Of a stretch of 64,000 nucleotides of DNA, positions 42,506 to 63,669 are shown piece after piece (within the stretch, counting starts at the first letter, position 1; the number at the start of each line of letters is the position of its first letter). The stretch comes from Egibacter rhizosphaerae (lineage in GTDB: Bacteria > Actinomycetota > Nitriliruptoria > Euzebyales > Egibacteraceae), in NCBI RefSeq assembly GCF_004322855.1, contig NZ_CP036402.1, positions 1 to 64,000 on the forward strand, read 5' to 3'. The notes under the pieces were generated by a model, which had not been told where the DNA came from, did not search any database, and was given only the letters and a program-made list of their open reading frames with translations. A program made the position numbers and the translations under genes.

Positions 42506-43741
42506 TCACCCTCCACGCGTGTCGTCACGGGTGGGCCACCCCTCGTCCGGACCGGGACCAGCCCGTGGATCGCGAGCGAGCAACGCCCCTCGCGTCACCG
42601 CCGTATCCCCGAACCTGGCCCGCGCGTCGTCGGCGGCGTGCTCGAGCGTCTCCCAGCGGTCGCTCTCCAGCAGATCGAGCTGTTGCGCCGCCCCACCGTC
42701 GACGAGGTTCCCGACGCCCAGGCCGACGAGCCGGACACGCACCCGCTCGAGCCGCTGCGCCTCGAGCAGCGCGGTGGCCTCACGGTGCAGCACGGTCGCC
42801 TGATCGGTGGGCGTGGGCAGGGTGCGGGACCGGGTGAGCGTCTGGAAGTTCGCGAACCGGAGTTTGAGGGTCACGGTGCGACCGGCGACCCCGCCGCCCC
42901 GGAGCCGTTGCGCGACCTTCTCGGCGAGTCGCAGGAGCTCGGTGCGCAGGATCTCGGGATCGTCCACGTCGGTCTCGAAGGTCTCCTCGGCGCTGAGGCC
43001 CTTCGCCGCCTCGTCGGGCGTGACCGTGCGTGGGTCGTGGCCCCGCGCGATCTCGGAGAGGTGCGCGCCCGCGGCCTGCCCGACGATCCGCGCGAGGGTA
43101 GCCGGCTCGGTCGCAGCGATGTCGCCGACGGTGCGCAACCCGTAGCGGTGCAACTGCTCGGTCGTCTTCTCCCCCACGCCCCACAACTCCCGTACCTCGA
43201 GGCCGGCCAGAAACGCGGTCACCCCGTCGACCGGCAGATGCTTGAGCCCGTCGGGCTTCGCGTGCTCGCTGCAGAGCTTCGCGAGGAACTTGTTCGGGGC
43301 GACACCGACGCTCGCGGGGAGCTGGAGCTCGTCGGCGATCCGCTCCCGCAGATCCGCAGCGATCCGCGGGGGCTCCCCGAACAGGCGCACGCTGCCGCCC
43401 ACGTCGAGGAACGCTTCGTCGAGCGAGAGCGGCTCGACGAGCGGGGTGACCGATCGCAGCAGCTCCATCAGCCGGTGCGAGACGTCGGTGTACGCCGCGA
43501 AGTCGGGAGGGCGGACGATCGCGTGGGGGCAGCGCCGCAGCGCGCTCGCCATCGGCATCGCCGAGCGAATGCCGTACACCCGCGCCTCGTAGGACGCGCT
43601 CGCGACCACCCCGCGCCCGCCGGTGCCGCCGATGAGCAGCGGCTTACCGGCCAGCGACGGCTCTCGCAGCGCCTCGACCGACGCGTAGAACGCGTCCATG
43701 TCGAGGTGCAGGATCGGCTCGGGGGGCCGCTGCCCGGTCAC
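42506..43741 (-). CDS. dinB: DNA polymerase IV (Y-family)
   Basis: Translesion polymerase of 411 residues. The active-site motifs are LHLDMDAFYASVE near the N-terminus and EPLSLDEAFLDV; the fingers/thumb (helix-hairpin-helix, VRELWGVGEKT) and little-finger domains follow. No clear beta-clamp peptide was picked out at the C-terminus. The GTG start at 43741 is inferred from the family boundary; the open frame continues upstream antisense to the HAD gene. No LexA-type box is seen in its promoter; instead a 36-bp perfect palindrome lies upstream. Confidence 0.93.
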   Translation of the reverse strand: MTGQRPPEPILHLDMDAFYASVEALREPSLAGKPLLIGGTGGRGVVASASYEARVYGIRSAMPMASALRRCPHAIVRPPDFAAYTDVSHRLMELLRSVTPLVEPLSLDEAFLDVGGSVRLFGEPPRIAADLRERIADELQLPASVGVAPNKFLAKLCSEHAKPDGLKHLPVDGVTAFLAGLEVRELWGVGEKTTEQLHRYGLRTVGDIAATEPATLARIVGQAAGAHLSEIARGHDPRTVTPDEAAKGLSAEETFETDVDDPEILRTELLRLAEKVAQRLRGGGVAGRTVTLKLRFANFQTLTRSRTLPTPTDQATVLHREATALLEAQRLERVRVRLVGLGVGNLVDGGAAQQLDLLESDRWETLEHAADDARARFGDTAVTRGALLARDPRAGPGPDEGWPTRDDTRGG

Positions 43742-43776
43742 GGCACCAGGGTACGCATCGTGGGCCTCGGAACGGT

Positions 43777-43812
43777 GGTGCGGTTGCCCGCGCCGGCGCG
43801 GGCAACCGCACC
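43777..43812. repeat. 36-bp perfect palindrome between dinB and a HAD gene
   Basis: The left half GGTGCGGTTGCCCGCGCC is followed directly by its exact reverse complement, with no spacer. It lies between two divergent genes, so it is not a terminator of either. It may be an operator or a cruciform-forming site. Confidence 0.75.
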
Positions 43813-43850
43813 GCGGGATAGCCGCGTTCGTTCCCACCCCCCAGGCGTCG

Positions 43851-43856
43851 TAGCCT
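43851..43856 (+). promoter_or_regulatory. -10 box of a leaderless transcript (HAD gene)
   Basis: TAGCCT is followed by seven bases and the ATG at 43864; there is no Shine-Dalgarno. This is the same TANNNT layout seen before several other genes in the window. Confidence 0.5.
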
Positions 43857-43863
43857 GCGCGGC

Positions 43864-44511
43864 ATGCACGCGGCCGTGTTCGACCTCGACGGGACCCTGA
43901 TCGACTCCGCGGACGACATCGCGGCGGCCTTCCGCGCGGCACTCGTCGCACACGGACGGCCCGCCCCGAGCCACGAGGAGGTGCGCGCGCTGATCGGACG
44001 GCCACTGCCGGAGATGCTCGCACGGTACGTGCCGGCCCGCGAAGTCCCCGAACTCGTCGCGCGCTACCGGATGCTCTACTGGCGACACTGTGCCGACCAG
44101 ACCCGACTGATGCCCGGGGTCCGCGTGACGCTCACCTCCCTGCGGGCAGACGGTTGGCGGCTCGCGGTCGCGACCACGAAGCGGACCGACATGGCGCGTC
44201 GTGTCAGTGCCGCACTCGGCGTGAGCGAGCTCGTCGACTACGTCCAGGGGACCGACGACCTGCCGGACAAACCCGCCCCCGACGTGGTCCTCGCGGCGCT
44301 GGACGGCCTCGGGACCGCGCCGTCTCCGACCTCGTGGATGATCGGCGACACCACCGACGACCTCGAGGCCGGGCGCGCCGCGGGTCTGTCGACCGCGGGG
44401 GTCGCCACCGGCGCCCACGAGCGCGAGTGGCTCGAGACCGCGGGCCCTCGATGCGTGGTCGACCGCATCGACGAACTCGTCGCGATGCTCACCGACACCA
44501 CTACTCGATGA
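43864..44511 (+). CDS. HAD-family phosphatase (phosphoglycolate phosphatase-like)
   Basis: A 215-residue hydrolase with motif I DLDGTLIDSADDI (residues 6-18), motif II in AVATTKR, and motif III/IV DKPAPDVV and MIGDTTDD. The helical cap between motifs I and II matches Gph/PpaX-like enzymes, which dephosphorylate 2-phosphoglycolate or similar. The substrate is not certain. The last bases and the stop lie in a 15-bp tandem duplication. Confidence 0.88.
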   Translation: MHAAVFDLDGTLIDSADDIAAAFRAALVAHGRPAPSHEEVRALIGRPLPEMLARYVPAREVPELVARYRMLYWRHCADQTRLMPGVRVTLTSLRADGWRLAVATTKRTDMARRVSAALGVSELVDYVQGTDDLPDKPAPDVVLAALDGLGTAPSPTSWMIGDTTDDLEAGRAAGLSTAGVATGAHEREWLETAGPRCVVDRIDELVAMLTDTTTR

Positions 44512-49223: not shown

Positions 49224-49299
49224 CGGTTCACTGCCCCTGCCTGACCTGCCTGACCTGCCTGGGGCGCCCCTGGGGGCACCCTGGAGCACCCTAGGGGGG

Positions 49300-49311
49300 G
49301 AACGTCAGTTC
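49300..49311. promoter_or_regulatory. LexA-type box upstream of the dnaE2-like gene
   Basis: GAACGTCAGTTC fits GAAC-N4-GTTC, the core of the Gram-positive LexA site; the flanks give GGAAC...GTTCGA, one mismatch from CGAAC-N4-GTTCG. It lies 77-88 bp before the dnaE2-like ATG. A minus-strand TACACT (49326-49331) 14 bases further upstream could be the -10 box. Confidence 0.65.
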
Positions 49312-49445
49312 GATACGTGGTGACGAGTGTACCGCCGAGCGTGGAACCGCACGCCCCACGAGATGCCTCCCGACCCGGCGGTAAAGAGCCCGGCCGGTGC
49401 TACGCTCATCCGTGCCCCGCCCCTCTCTCGGCGCCTGAGGACGCG

Positions 49446-57091: not shown

Positions 57092-57529
57092 TGCGCCACC
57101 TCCCGCACACTGTGAGTAGTGTCGTCACCGTAGAGCGCTGTCTCGAGTATGGCCTTTGCGAAACGTCGTGACCGCCCGGCTGACCCGATGCTGGCATCGC
57201 AGTCTCCCCGCCCCGGAGGTGTGGACAAAACCGCGGGTGCCCCGGAGGTGTGGACAAAACCGCGGGTGGAACGATCCCTTCCGTCCACACCTTCCGGCTG
57301 GCGGCCGGGTGAGGGGCTCGCTGTGGACAGGAGCGCCAGCCATCGCGCCCGGGCATGTCCACACCAAGGATGCGGTGGCACGACGCCACGACGGTGTGGA
57401 CGGAGGTGACCACCGGCGGGTGCTGTCGTGTCCACACCCAGCCGACCCAGGCCCGGGACGAGCGCACAGCGCACCAGGGTCCGCCGCACCGAGCGATCGG
57501 TGCAAGCCGGAAGGAGCCGGACTCGCGGC
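57092..57529. other. Gene-free region with a cluster of DnaA-box-like sites
   Basis: This 438-bp gap carries seven nonamers containing GTCCACA: minus-strand 57220-57228 and 57249-57257 (both TTGTCCACA), plus 57291-57299 (CCGTCCACA), minus 57322-57330 (CTGTCCACA), plus 57355-57363 (ATGTCCACA), minus 57395-57403 (CCGTCCACA), plus 57428-57436 (GTGTCCACA). TTGTCCACA is the known high-affinity DnaA box of high-GC actinobacteria. dnaA and dnaN are not present in the window, and no AT-rich unwinding element is seen. It may titrate DnaA or link a nearby gene to replication. Confidence 0.65.
57211..57268. repeat. 29-bp perfect tandem duplication carrying two DnaA boxes
   Basis: A 29-bp unit that begins CCCCGGAGGTGTGGACAAAA is present twice with no spacer and no mismatch. 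Each unit carries one TTGTCCACA on the minus strand, so the duplication doubled a consensus DnaA box. Confidence 0.85.
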
Positions 57530-58235: not shown

Positions 58236-58505
58236 TCAATCCCACACCCGGGTGACCCGCCACTCCCCTCTTTCGTGGACGAGTTCGATGATGCCCAGGG
58301 AGGTATCCACGCGCCAGAGGTCTCGTTGTGGGACCTCCAGCCCGTGCCTCCACCACGGTCCCGTGTCCTCCCGCCAGAAGCCCAGGATCGAACGGACCCG
58401 ATATATCCGGCCCTTCCAACGGAACCTCGACGGAGCGCCGTCGTTCGCCCGTCGATCGGGCAGGGTATCGACCACTTCGACCCTCTCCCGCACGCGTTTG
58501 GTCAT
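58236..58505 (-). CDS. DUF6504 protein, predicted SOS-regulated
   Basis: An 89-residue protein of the DUF6504 family (RFRWKGRIYRVRSILGFWRED ... WRVTRVWD), which in actinobacteria is often encoded near dnaE2 or dinB-type genes. The start at ATG 58505 is fixed by GGAGGGG directly upstream. The frame stays open for 118 more codons through the minisatellite from GTG 58859, giving a Cys/Pro-rich extension that is probably not translated. The promoter with a perfect LexA box lies about 400 bp upstream. The function is unknown; a role in damage tolerance is inferred. Confidence 0.8.
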   Translation of the reverse strand: MTKRVRERVEVVDTLPDRRANDGAPSRFRWKGRIYRVRSILGFWREDTGPWWRHGLEVPQRDLWRVDTSLGIIELVHERGEWRVTRVWD

Positions 58506-58546
58506 CACCCCTCCACGTATCGGCGCACCTGCGTGCCACAAGGGAC

Positions 58547-58808
58547 CCCTGGGAAGGTGAGCCCTGGGAAGGCGGGCCCGGCAGACGAACCCTGGGGAGG
58601 TGGGCCCGGCAGACAAACCCTGGGGAGGTGGGTCCGGCAGACGAACCCTGGGGAGGTGGGCCCGGCAGACAAACCCTGGGGAGGTGGGCCCGGCAGACAA
58701 ACCCTGGGAAGGCGGGCCCGGCAGACAAACCCTGGGGAGGTGGGCCCGGCAGACGAACCCTGGGAAGGTGGGCCGGAAGCTGGCCCTGGGAAGGCAGGCC
58801 CGCGGAAG
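58547..58808. repeat. 28-bp minisatellite (seven full units plus degenerate edges)
   Basis: Seven head-to-tail 28-bp units fill 58562-58757, each starting CCCTGGG and ending GGCAGACRAA. Two variants alternate: one with GGGAAGGCGGG and one with GGGGAGGTGGG. A partial unit precedes them (58547-58561) and degenerate units follow to about 58808. There are no spacers, so this is not a CRISPR array. The unit length is not divisible by three. Confidence 0.9.
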
Positions 58809-58885
58809 GGATGCGGGGAGAGGGGCCGGAGCGGCGACCGGAGCGTGCCTTCCCTTCACGCCCCGGCCGCCCCGGCCGGCCTGAC

Positions 58886-58899
58886 CGAACGTACGTTCG
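58886..58899. promoter_or_regulatory. Perfect LexA (SOS) box
   Basis: CGAACGTACGTTCG is a 14-bp perfect palindrome and an exact match to the Gram-positive SOS consensus CGAAC-N4-GTTCG. It starts 10 bases after the TACCGT -10 box of a minus-strand promoter, so bound LexA would cover the transcription start. Confidence 0.82.
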
Positions 58900-58909
58900 A
58901 TCAGAGGGG

Positions 58910-58938
58910 ACGGTACGTCAGCTCGACCGGTTCGTCAA
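58910..58938 (-). promoter_or_regulatory. Promoter of the DUF6504 gene
   Basis: TTGACG and TACCGT are separated by exactly 17 nt on the minus strand. Transcription is expected to start near 58903, inside or beside the LexA box, leaving a leader of about 400 nt with the minisatellite. Confidence 0.65.
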
Positions 58939-58973
58939 CCGGACGCCGGCGACGAGTTCGGGCCATCCGGGCC

Positions 58974-59912
58974 CTATCCGTCGTCCGGGGACCCATCGAG
59001 CTCGGCGTCGTCCGGGGACTCCTCGAGCTCGTCCAACTCGTCGAGGAACCGCTCGGCCAGCTCGTCAGGCGCCTCGCCGCCTTCGTGCTCCGCGTTCAAC
59101 CTTCGCAAGGTGGCGCTGTCGAGGGCATCAACCAGCGGTTCGAGCACCTCCCGGATCTCGCCGCGGTCAGCGGGGGATCCTTGTCGCGCCACCGGTGCCA
59201 CGAGGAACGAGGGGAAGACCGACAGGTCGTCGGCGACGGGCACGAGTCCCTCCGCGTGCGCTGCTCCGGAGGTCGCGGTCGCGAGGCCCGCGAAGCACGT
59301 GCCCGAGGCGACCCCTGCGATGGCCTCCTCCTCGCTCATCGGTTGCTGCGAGAGGCGGGTCAGGTCGATCGCGTACTCGTCGGCGAGCGCGTCGAGGCCC
59401 CCCGGACGCTCGATGAAGTCCGCGTCGGCGCAGAGCGTGCGCTCGCCCCCGGAGAGTTCACCCGCGAGCCAGCTCATACCGGCCTCGGGGTTCGGTCGCG
59501 ACCCTTCCCTGACGAACAGCGCGAAGGTGGCGTCCGCGTCGGTCGGCTCCAGCCACAGCAGGCCGTTGCGACGGTCCGCCTCACGGACCCGCTCCCACGA
59601 CTCGATCGGGTCGGCGGGTGGGGCGGGCTCGCGCATCCCCCGTGACCAGGCCGCCCCGGTGTAGTCCCAATAGAGGTCGACCCGGTCGCGCGCTGCCTCG
59701 CGGCGCAGCCCCACGGTCGTCCCGAGCTCATCGCTGCGTTCGACCGGCACTTCGGCCCGTTCGAGTGCCTCGACCGTGAGCGCGGCCAGCACCTGCTGCT
59801 CCCCGAGGGCACCGACCCCCACGGTGACCGGCTCGGACTGCGCGGCCGAAGACAGGCCACAGCCCGCCGCGCCGAGCAGCACGACCGCGCCGGTGAGCAG
59901 TCGGAGTCGCAT
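58974..59912 (-). CDS. Osmoprotectant (glycine betaine)-type ABC substrate-binding lipoprotein
   Basis: A 312-residue lipoprotein: lipobox LGAAGC (Cys18), then an OpuAC/OsmF-like binding domain (TVGVGALGEQQVLAAL, DLYWDYTGAAW, GLLWLEPTDADATFAL). Members bind glycine betaine, choline or related compounds for import. The C-terminus is a strongly acidic tail (about 30 residues). No permease or ATPase gene lies beside it, so it is an orphan or serves a transporter elsewhere. The exact ligand is uncertain. Confidence 0.82.
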   Translation of the reverse strand: MRLRLLTGAVVLLGAAGCGLSSAAQSEPVTVGVGALGEQQVLAALTVEALERAEVPVERSDELGTTVGLRREAARDRVDLYWDYTGAAWSRGMREPAPPADPIESWERVREADRRNGLLWLEPTDADATFALFVREGSRPNPEAGMSWLAGELSGGERTLCADADFIERPGGLDALADEYAIDLTRLSQQPMSEEEAIAGVASGTCFAGLATATSGAAHAEGLVPVADDLSVFPSFLVAPVARQGSPADRGEIREVLEPLVDALDSATLRRLNAEHEGGEAPDELAERFLDELDELEESPDDAELDGSPDDG

Positions 59913-63240: not shown

Positions 63241-63669
63241 TCAGAGCGCCGGATCCGAGAGGTCGAGGTGGGCGAGGTGGCTCTCGAGGCGCTGGATCTC
63301 GGCGGCCACCGCTTCGATGTCGCGCTCGAGCCGCGCATCGTGGCTGGGGAACAGGAGCTGCGACGAGGTGTCGGCGGCGCCGATCTGCCACTCCTGCGAT
63401 CGCGCCCACTCGCCCAGGGAGAACTCCCAGGTGAACAGTGCCTCGCGTCCGTCGTCGTGAACCCACTCGGTGAGGTAGCGGTTCGGGGTGCGCGCGAACT
63501 GCCGCGTGCCGTGGCGGTCCTCCTGGACGAACGCGAAGCCCAACGCGTCCAGGCCCTCCAGGAACTCACCGCCGGGGTCGGCCGGCTCGGGCGGAGGTGG
63601 CTCGGGCGGAGGTGGCTCGGGCGGAGGTGGCTCGGGCGGAGGTGGCTCGGGCGGAGGTGGCTCGACCAT
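63241..63669 (-). CDS. Hypothetical protein with PPPPE repeats
   Basis: A 142-residue protein of two parts: an N-terminal stretch with PPPPE repeated five times (about residues 4-28), then a mixed domain (FLEGLDALGFAFVQEDRHGTRQFARTPNRY spread over about 35-64; WVHDDGREALFTWEFSLGEW) and a C-terminal coiled coil (ERDIEAVAAEIQRLESHLAHLD). The start is ATG 63669. It ends just upstream of the TPP riboswitch. The family is not recognised; the Pro repeats suggest a linker or an SH3-like partner. Confidence 0.7.
   Translation of the reverse strand: MVEPPPPEPPPPEPPPPEPPPPEPPPPEPADPGGEFLEGLDALGFAFVQEDRHGTRQFARTPNRYLTEWVHDDGREALFTWEFSLGEWARSQEWQIGAADTSSQLLFPSHDARLERDIEAVAAEIQRLESHLAHLDLSDPAL
63586..63660 (-). 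repeat. Five perfect 15-bp tandem repeats coding PPPPE
   Basis: The unit CTCGGGCGGAGGTGG occurs five times without mismatch inside the coding region, giving the five PPPPE units. Zero divergence between copies points to recent expansion or active slippage. Confidence 0.9.

Follow-up and report, generated by a model that had tools for sequence, protein, structure and literature searches.

The DUF6504 gene of Egibacter rhizosphaerae lies on the minus strand of the analyzed stretch of 64,000 nt (contig NZ_CP036402.1, positions 1 to 64,000; hereafter, the window), and is preceded by a candidate promoter, a palindromic candidate LexA box, a minisatellite and a ribosome-binding-like sequence (Table 1). 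This layout had been proposed in an earlier note on the same DNA as a minus-strand TTGACG-17-TACCGT promoter followed by a palindrome, seven 28-bp repeats and a DUF6504 gene, and all these elements are found where the note placed them. The repeat-filled leader, put there at about 400 nt, measures 380 nt from the box to the ATG. The ribosome site had been called strong; given that the end of GGAGG is 4 nt from the ATG, we rate it as no more than fair. The –10 hexamer is a weak match to the consensus. An OpuAC-type gene upstream ends at 58974, approximately 36 bp ahead of the –35 element, and no terminator-like site was identified in the scanned region 58480–58980.

Table 1. Features of the DUF6504 locus and of the linked polymerase genes (positions in the window).
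Feature	Position	Strand	Basis and comments
–35 element TTGACG	58933..58938	–	Sequence; TTGAC[A/C/G/T] in the corresponding position at roughly half of the class loci
–10 element TACCGT	58910..58915	–	Sequence; 17-nt spacer from TTGACG
Predicted LexA box CGAACGTACGTTCG	58886..58899	.	Motif CGAAC-N4-GTTCG, perfect match
Leader minisatellite	58547..58802	–	Seven 28-bp units at 58562–58757 and decayed copies on both sides; TRF score 363–377, unit alignment
Ribosome-binding-like GGAGG(GGTG)	58506..58515	–	Sequence
DUF6504 (stand-alone imuB-C) gene, 89 aa	58236..58505	–	ATG at 58505; PF20114 match
LexA-like box before dnaE2, CGAACTGACGTTCC on the minus strand	49299..49312	.	Motif scan; one mismatch
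dnaE2, error-prone C-family polymerase, 1281 aa	45444..49289	–	PHP, DNA_pol3_alpha, finger and HHH_6 domains
dinB (Pol IV)	42506..44023	–	Domain search; catalytic motifs intact

The palindrome upstream of DUF6504 is the sole exact CGAAC-N4-GTTCG site identified by pattern scan in the window. Among 61 searched genomes of the class, DUF6504 is present in 50, including Egibacter rhizosphaerae, and each of these 50 loci has a box upstream of the gene, perfect in 44 cases and with no more than one mismatch in any. The remainder of these class loci contains two perfect sites in 144,482 positions, and, with this remainder as the background, approximately 0.005 perfect sites are expected by chance per 400 nt. 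Moreover, a –10-like TANNNT, mostly of the TACCGT or TACGGT appearance, starts 7–20 nt ahead of the box in 45 out of 49 scored class loci. In four class loci the TTCG right half-site is absent, and the TACGAT of the right half itself resembles a –10 element. Outside the class, the box is observed at 27 of the 33 examined DUF6504 loci; the remaining six, with no box, are weak DUF6504 matches, probably from deep-branching lineages. A search for the motif before related DUF6504 genes had been suggested in the earlier note as a check of its claim that an SOS promoter precedes DUF6504, and conservation of both the box and the promoter strongly supports this claim, so far as regulation can be predicted from sequence. 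In one locus (L042), four GTTCGA half-sites with 11-bp spacing are located at the DUF6504 LexA box and immediately downstream of it, as if LexA could bind serially along one helix face. In a locus from another actinobacterial lineage (L142:3992-5040), a weak DUF6504 gene adjoins a gene with a lexA-like start.

Genome-wide, the exact motif occurs at 13 sites in 4.64 Mb, compared to one site for the reversed control pattern. About half of these 13 sites are located inside genes or have no clear target; sites near gene starts are found at lexA (two sites), ruvC, a radical SAM gene, a DUF222-HNH gene and DUF6504. With several of them intergenic and ahead of SOS-type genes, the motif is present more often than by chance. 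The product of the genome's own lexA gene has Peptidase_S24 and LexA_DNA_bind domains, and the site there, CGAACGCACGTTCG, represents the same motif as the one in the DUF6504 promoter; recA is preceded by a box with one mismatch.

The function of DUF6504 had been described as unknown, which is out of date: the family is ImuB-C, described in 2013 as stand-alone proteins and a predicted subunit of the DnaE2 mutasome (Aravind et al., 2013, PMC3765255). The ImuB-C domain is characterized by a conserved C-terminal tryptophan and a beta-rich structure with no catalytic pattern (PMC3765255). The product of the studied gene matches PF20114 with 47.5 bits against the gathering score of 24.2. In an alignment of 11 sequences we observe a conserved MTKR-like start and 23 invariant positions, among them W88, which fits the description of the C-terminal tryptophan (PMC3765255), and the predicted structure is beta-rich, with seven strands and pLDDT 92. 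In Deinococcus deserti, Deide_1p01890 has been named imuB-C in a review (PMC8072749); the gene at this position, in the order lexA-PolY-X-dnaE2, is annotated as DUF6504 and matches PF20114. In Roseomonas ImuB, the ImuB-C domain is found at residues 419–495 with a score below the curated cut-off. Thus, the DUF6504 family equals stand-alone ImuB-C (PMC3765255, PMC6511836, PMC8072749, PMC12926913), and the Pfam name, which we did not find in the literature searched, is now tied to the ImuB-C literature. Among solved structures, the sequence search produced no significant relatives; in the fold search, the level of E ≤ 0.001 was reached by no PDB entry (the best one, EF-P, has E 0.33), and the best VIA-align match, spermidine synthase, has Z 5.4 over 54 residues, below the level for a fold claim. 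The poor PDB match of the beta-rich model agrees with what has been reported for ImuB-C (PMC12926913). In the AlphaFold prediction for ImuB of M. tuberculosis, ImuB-C binds DnaE2 (PMC12926913). The DUF6504 protein probably assists an error-prone repair DNA polymerase.

Both dnaE2 and dinB are encoded on the same strand as DUF6504, 9–16 kb away. Among the NCBIfam models, DnaE2 scores best with PRK05672 (error-prone DNA polymerase), although the score is below the curated cut-off of this model. The box upstream of dnaE2 is present in all 18 relatives with a readable dnaE2 start of this type, and is perfect in 16 of them. In genomes of the same family or order, where both genes are on one contig, dnaE2 lies on the same strand approximately 7–22 kb downstream of DUF6504, with metabolic genes, e.g., aceE, in between. 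Other actinobacteria have DUF6504, dnaE2 and dinB grouped in that order. This order, the position of dnaE2 downstream of DUF6504 in the relatives and the D. deserti counterpart bear out the previously suggested link between DUF6504 and damage-tolerance polymerases. As dnaE2 and DUF6504 are apart, yet each has a LexA box, other genes seem to have been inserted into a formerly linked SOS cassette and to have split it, with both parts still under predicted LexA control. One more gene is observed shortly downstream of imuB-C in several relatives: in L077 (7611-8234) it encodes a UdgX-family uracil-DNA binding protein; L078, L079, L081 and L085 have a gene that is similar by its start, the family being established for L077 only.

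Apart from dinB, no IMS-domain gene was found in the genome, hence we see no separate imuB; the search for a fused ImuB in the genome was also negative. Accordingly with respect to gene content, the genome holds DnaE2, ImuB-C and an active-looking PolY with no fused ImuB, as in the DnaE2-[ImuB-C]-PolY-RecA mutasome. Presence of the full complex is uncertain, because dinB has no clear LexA box and the tail of its product, RWETLEHAADDARARFGDTAVTRGALL, which resembles the RecA-NT motif, is not significant by itself (40 of 2000 shuffles score as well); a similar tail is seen in L101. No second RecA-family gene was matched in the genome.

Taken together, these observations make it very probable that the locus is a LexA-repressed gene of stand-alone ImuB-C, a predicted partner of DnaE2, and that the array is a genome-specific minisatellite with no role by default. 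As the box is just downstream of the –10 element, LexA bound at 58886–58899 would cover the transcription start region and block initiation. DNA damage would lift this block through RecA-triggered cleavage of LexA; the cell would then produce the 89-aa protein along with DnaE2, encoded 9 kb downstream under its own, weaker box. ImuB-C would then probably serve as the beta-barrel subunit binding DnaE2 in an error-prone polymerase of the DnaE2-[ImuB-C]-PolY-RecA type, in which PolY is likely to be the nearby DinB. In this way, the conserved operator and promoter assign a widespread "domain of unknown function" to the predicted SOS regulon, both throughout an actinobacterial class and outside it, and provide clear candidates for studies of DnaE2-dependent mutagenesis in bacteria with no fused ImuB.

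An alternative is that the LexA box does not control the gene, and the message starts below the array, at an unseen promoter, or mainly comes from read-through of the OpuAC-type gene, whose end close to the –35 element, with no terminator-like site in the scanned region, would allow for it. We consider this quite unlikely, given the conserved position of the box and promoter across the class; besides, a simple scan yields no promoter-like site in the scanned region, though it misses the conserved promoter as well.

The gene itself encodes a mutasome component of an already known kind, and the unusual feature of the locus is the array in its leader. The seven full units have 25–28 matches out of 28 to one consensus. 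The array was not found in 60 searched relatives, no congener being among them. With the array excluded, the leader is approximately 124 nt long, and the distance from the box to the start in the other 49 class loci is 23–178 nt. Two further sites of the genome carry the same unit with a 27-bp period, in frame within coding genes: a DUF418 gene has about nine copies and an AMP-binding ligase gene, about 3.6, the two being read from opposite strands; these arrays (L071:3353-3591 and L072:3400-3495) encode peptides of the PTSPGSSAG and PGVVGPGEE types. As the unit is in frame in two genes from opposite strands and also occurs in the leader, it appears to have spread at the DNA level. The searches for a mobile origin gave no exact match in viral contigs and no similar plasmid DNA. 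The simplest reading is a young, genome-specific minisatellite in a tolerant place: the array looks incidental and presumably neutral, a recent insertion that would have expanded in, or been copied into, an ordinary leader.

The suggestion that the repeats tune expression is left with no support, as the array is private among the genomes searched, its unit resides elsewhere inside coding genes, and shuffled versions of the leader RNA fold about as well as the RNA itself (z = 0.47). As a regulatory device, the array would act via the number of units altering the leader length, mRNA stability, Rho access or translation, and hence the amount of ImuB-C after damage. Its position, wholly between the box and the start codon, and the C-rich transcribed strand are compatible with such a device, and short tandem repeats are also present in the leaders of L042 and L052 (two, compared to about 0.3 expected, on a background of mostly coding DNA). 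However, in addition to the above arguments, the other leaders do without the array and no terminator-like site accompanies it, so that a regulatory role seems improbable. Even less probable is a slow heritable dial, in which damage-promoted slippage would change the copy number, shifting the ImuB-C output and hence the mutation rate. The literature search for LexA and minisatellites retrieved nothing relevant in titles or abstracts, and, on present evidence, we view the array more as a curiosity than as a mechanism.

The array could also be translated, as the frame is open from GTG at 58859 to 58236 and would yield a DUF6504 protein of 207 aa with a repetitive N-terminus. The open frame means little, since none of the minus-strand frames of the 28-bp unit contains a stop, and orthologues begin at the conserved MTKR-like motif. 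Moreover, both coding arrays keep the 27-bp period, while the 28-bp period of the leader shifts the frame at each unit, which argues against translation of the leader; we regard a coding array as the least probable of all these possibilities.

Like Deide_1p01890 and other stand-alone ImuB-C proteins (PMC3765255, PMC8072749), the product is a small beta-rich PF20114 protein, LexA-linked and encoded near dnaE2 and Y-family genes, but D. deserti has a single lexA-imuY-imuB-C-dnaE2 operon with an inactive PolY, whereas in Egibacter rhizosphaerae imuB-C has its own predicted LexA promoter, dnaE2 is 9 kb off, and PolY looks active. With the DnaE2-[ImuB-C]-PolY-RecA mutasome it has in common that a single actinobacterial genome encodes DnaE2, stand-alone ImuB-C and a PolY that appears active; the main text of that paper (PMC12926913) makes no mention of LexA, and in Egibacter rhizosphaerae we observe the split layout, in which each part has its own LexA box, and the repeat-filled leader. 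The ImuA-ImuB-DnaE2 mutasome differs in having the fused ImuB.

The head-to-tail organization of 27–28 bp units in about four to nine copies with high identity is similar to that of bacterial minisatellites (VNTRs), and the difference is that one unit occupies three sites, with the 27-bp period in frame in two opposite-strand genes and the 28-bp period in the leader. Elsewhere in the genome, related GGTGGGCCCGG and GGGGGAGGCGGACCCGG arrays with 29-bp and 15-bp periods are observed at L175:2923-3041 and L176:2990-3080. The window itself contains two perfect 29-bp copies at 57210–57268 and a perfect 15-bp array of 5.4 copies, open in a reading frame, at 63584–63664, and the genome as a whole seems rich in minisatellites.
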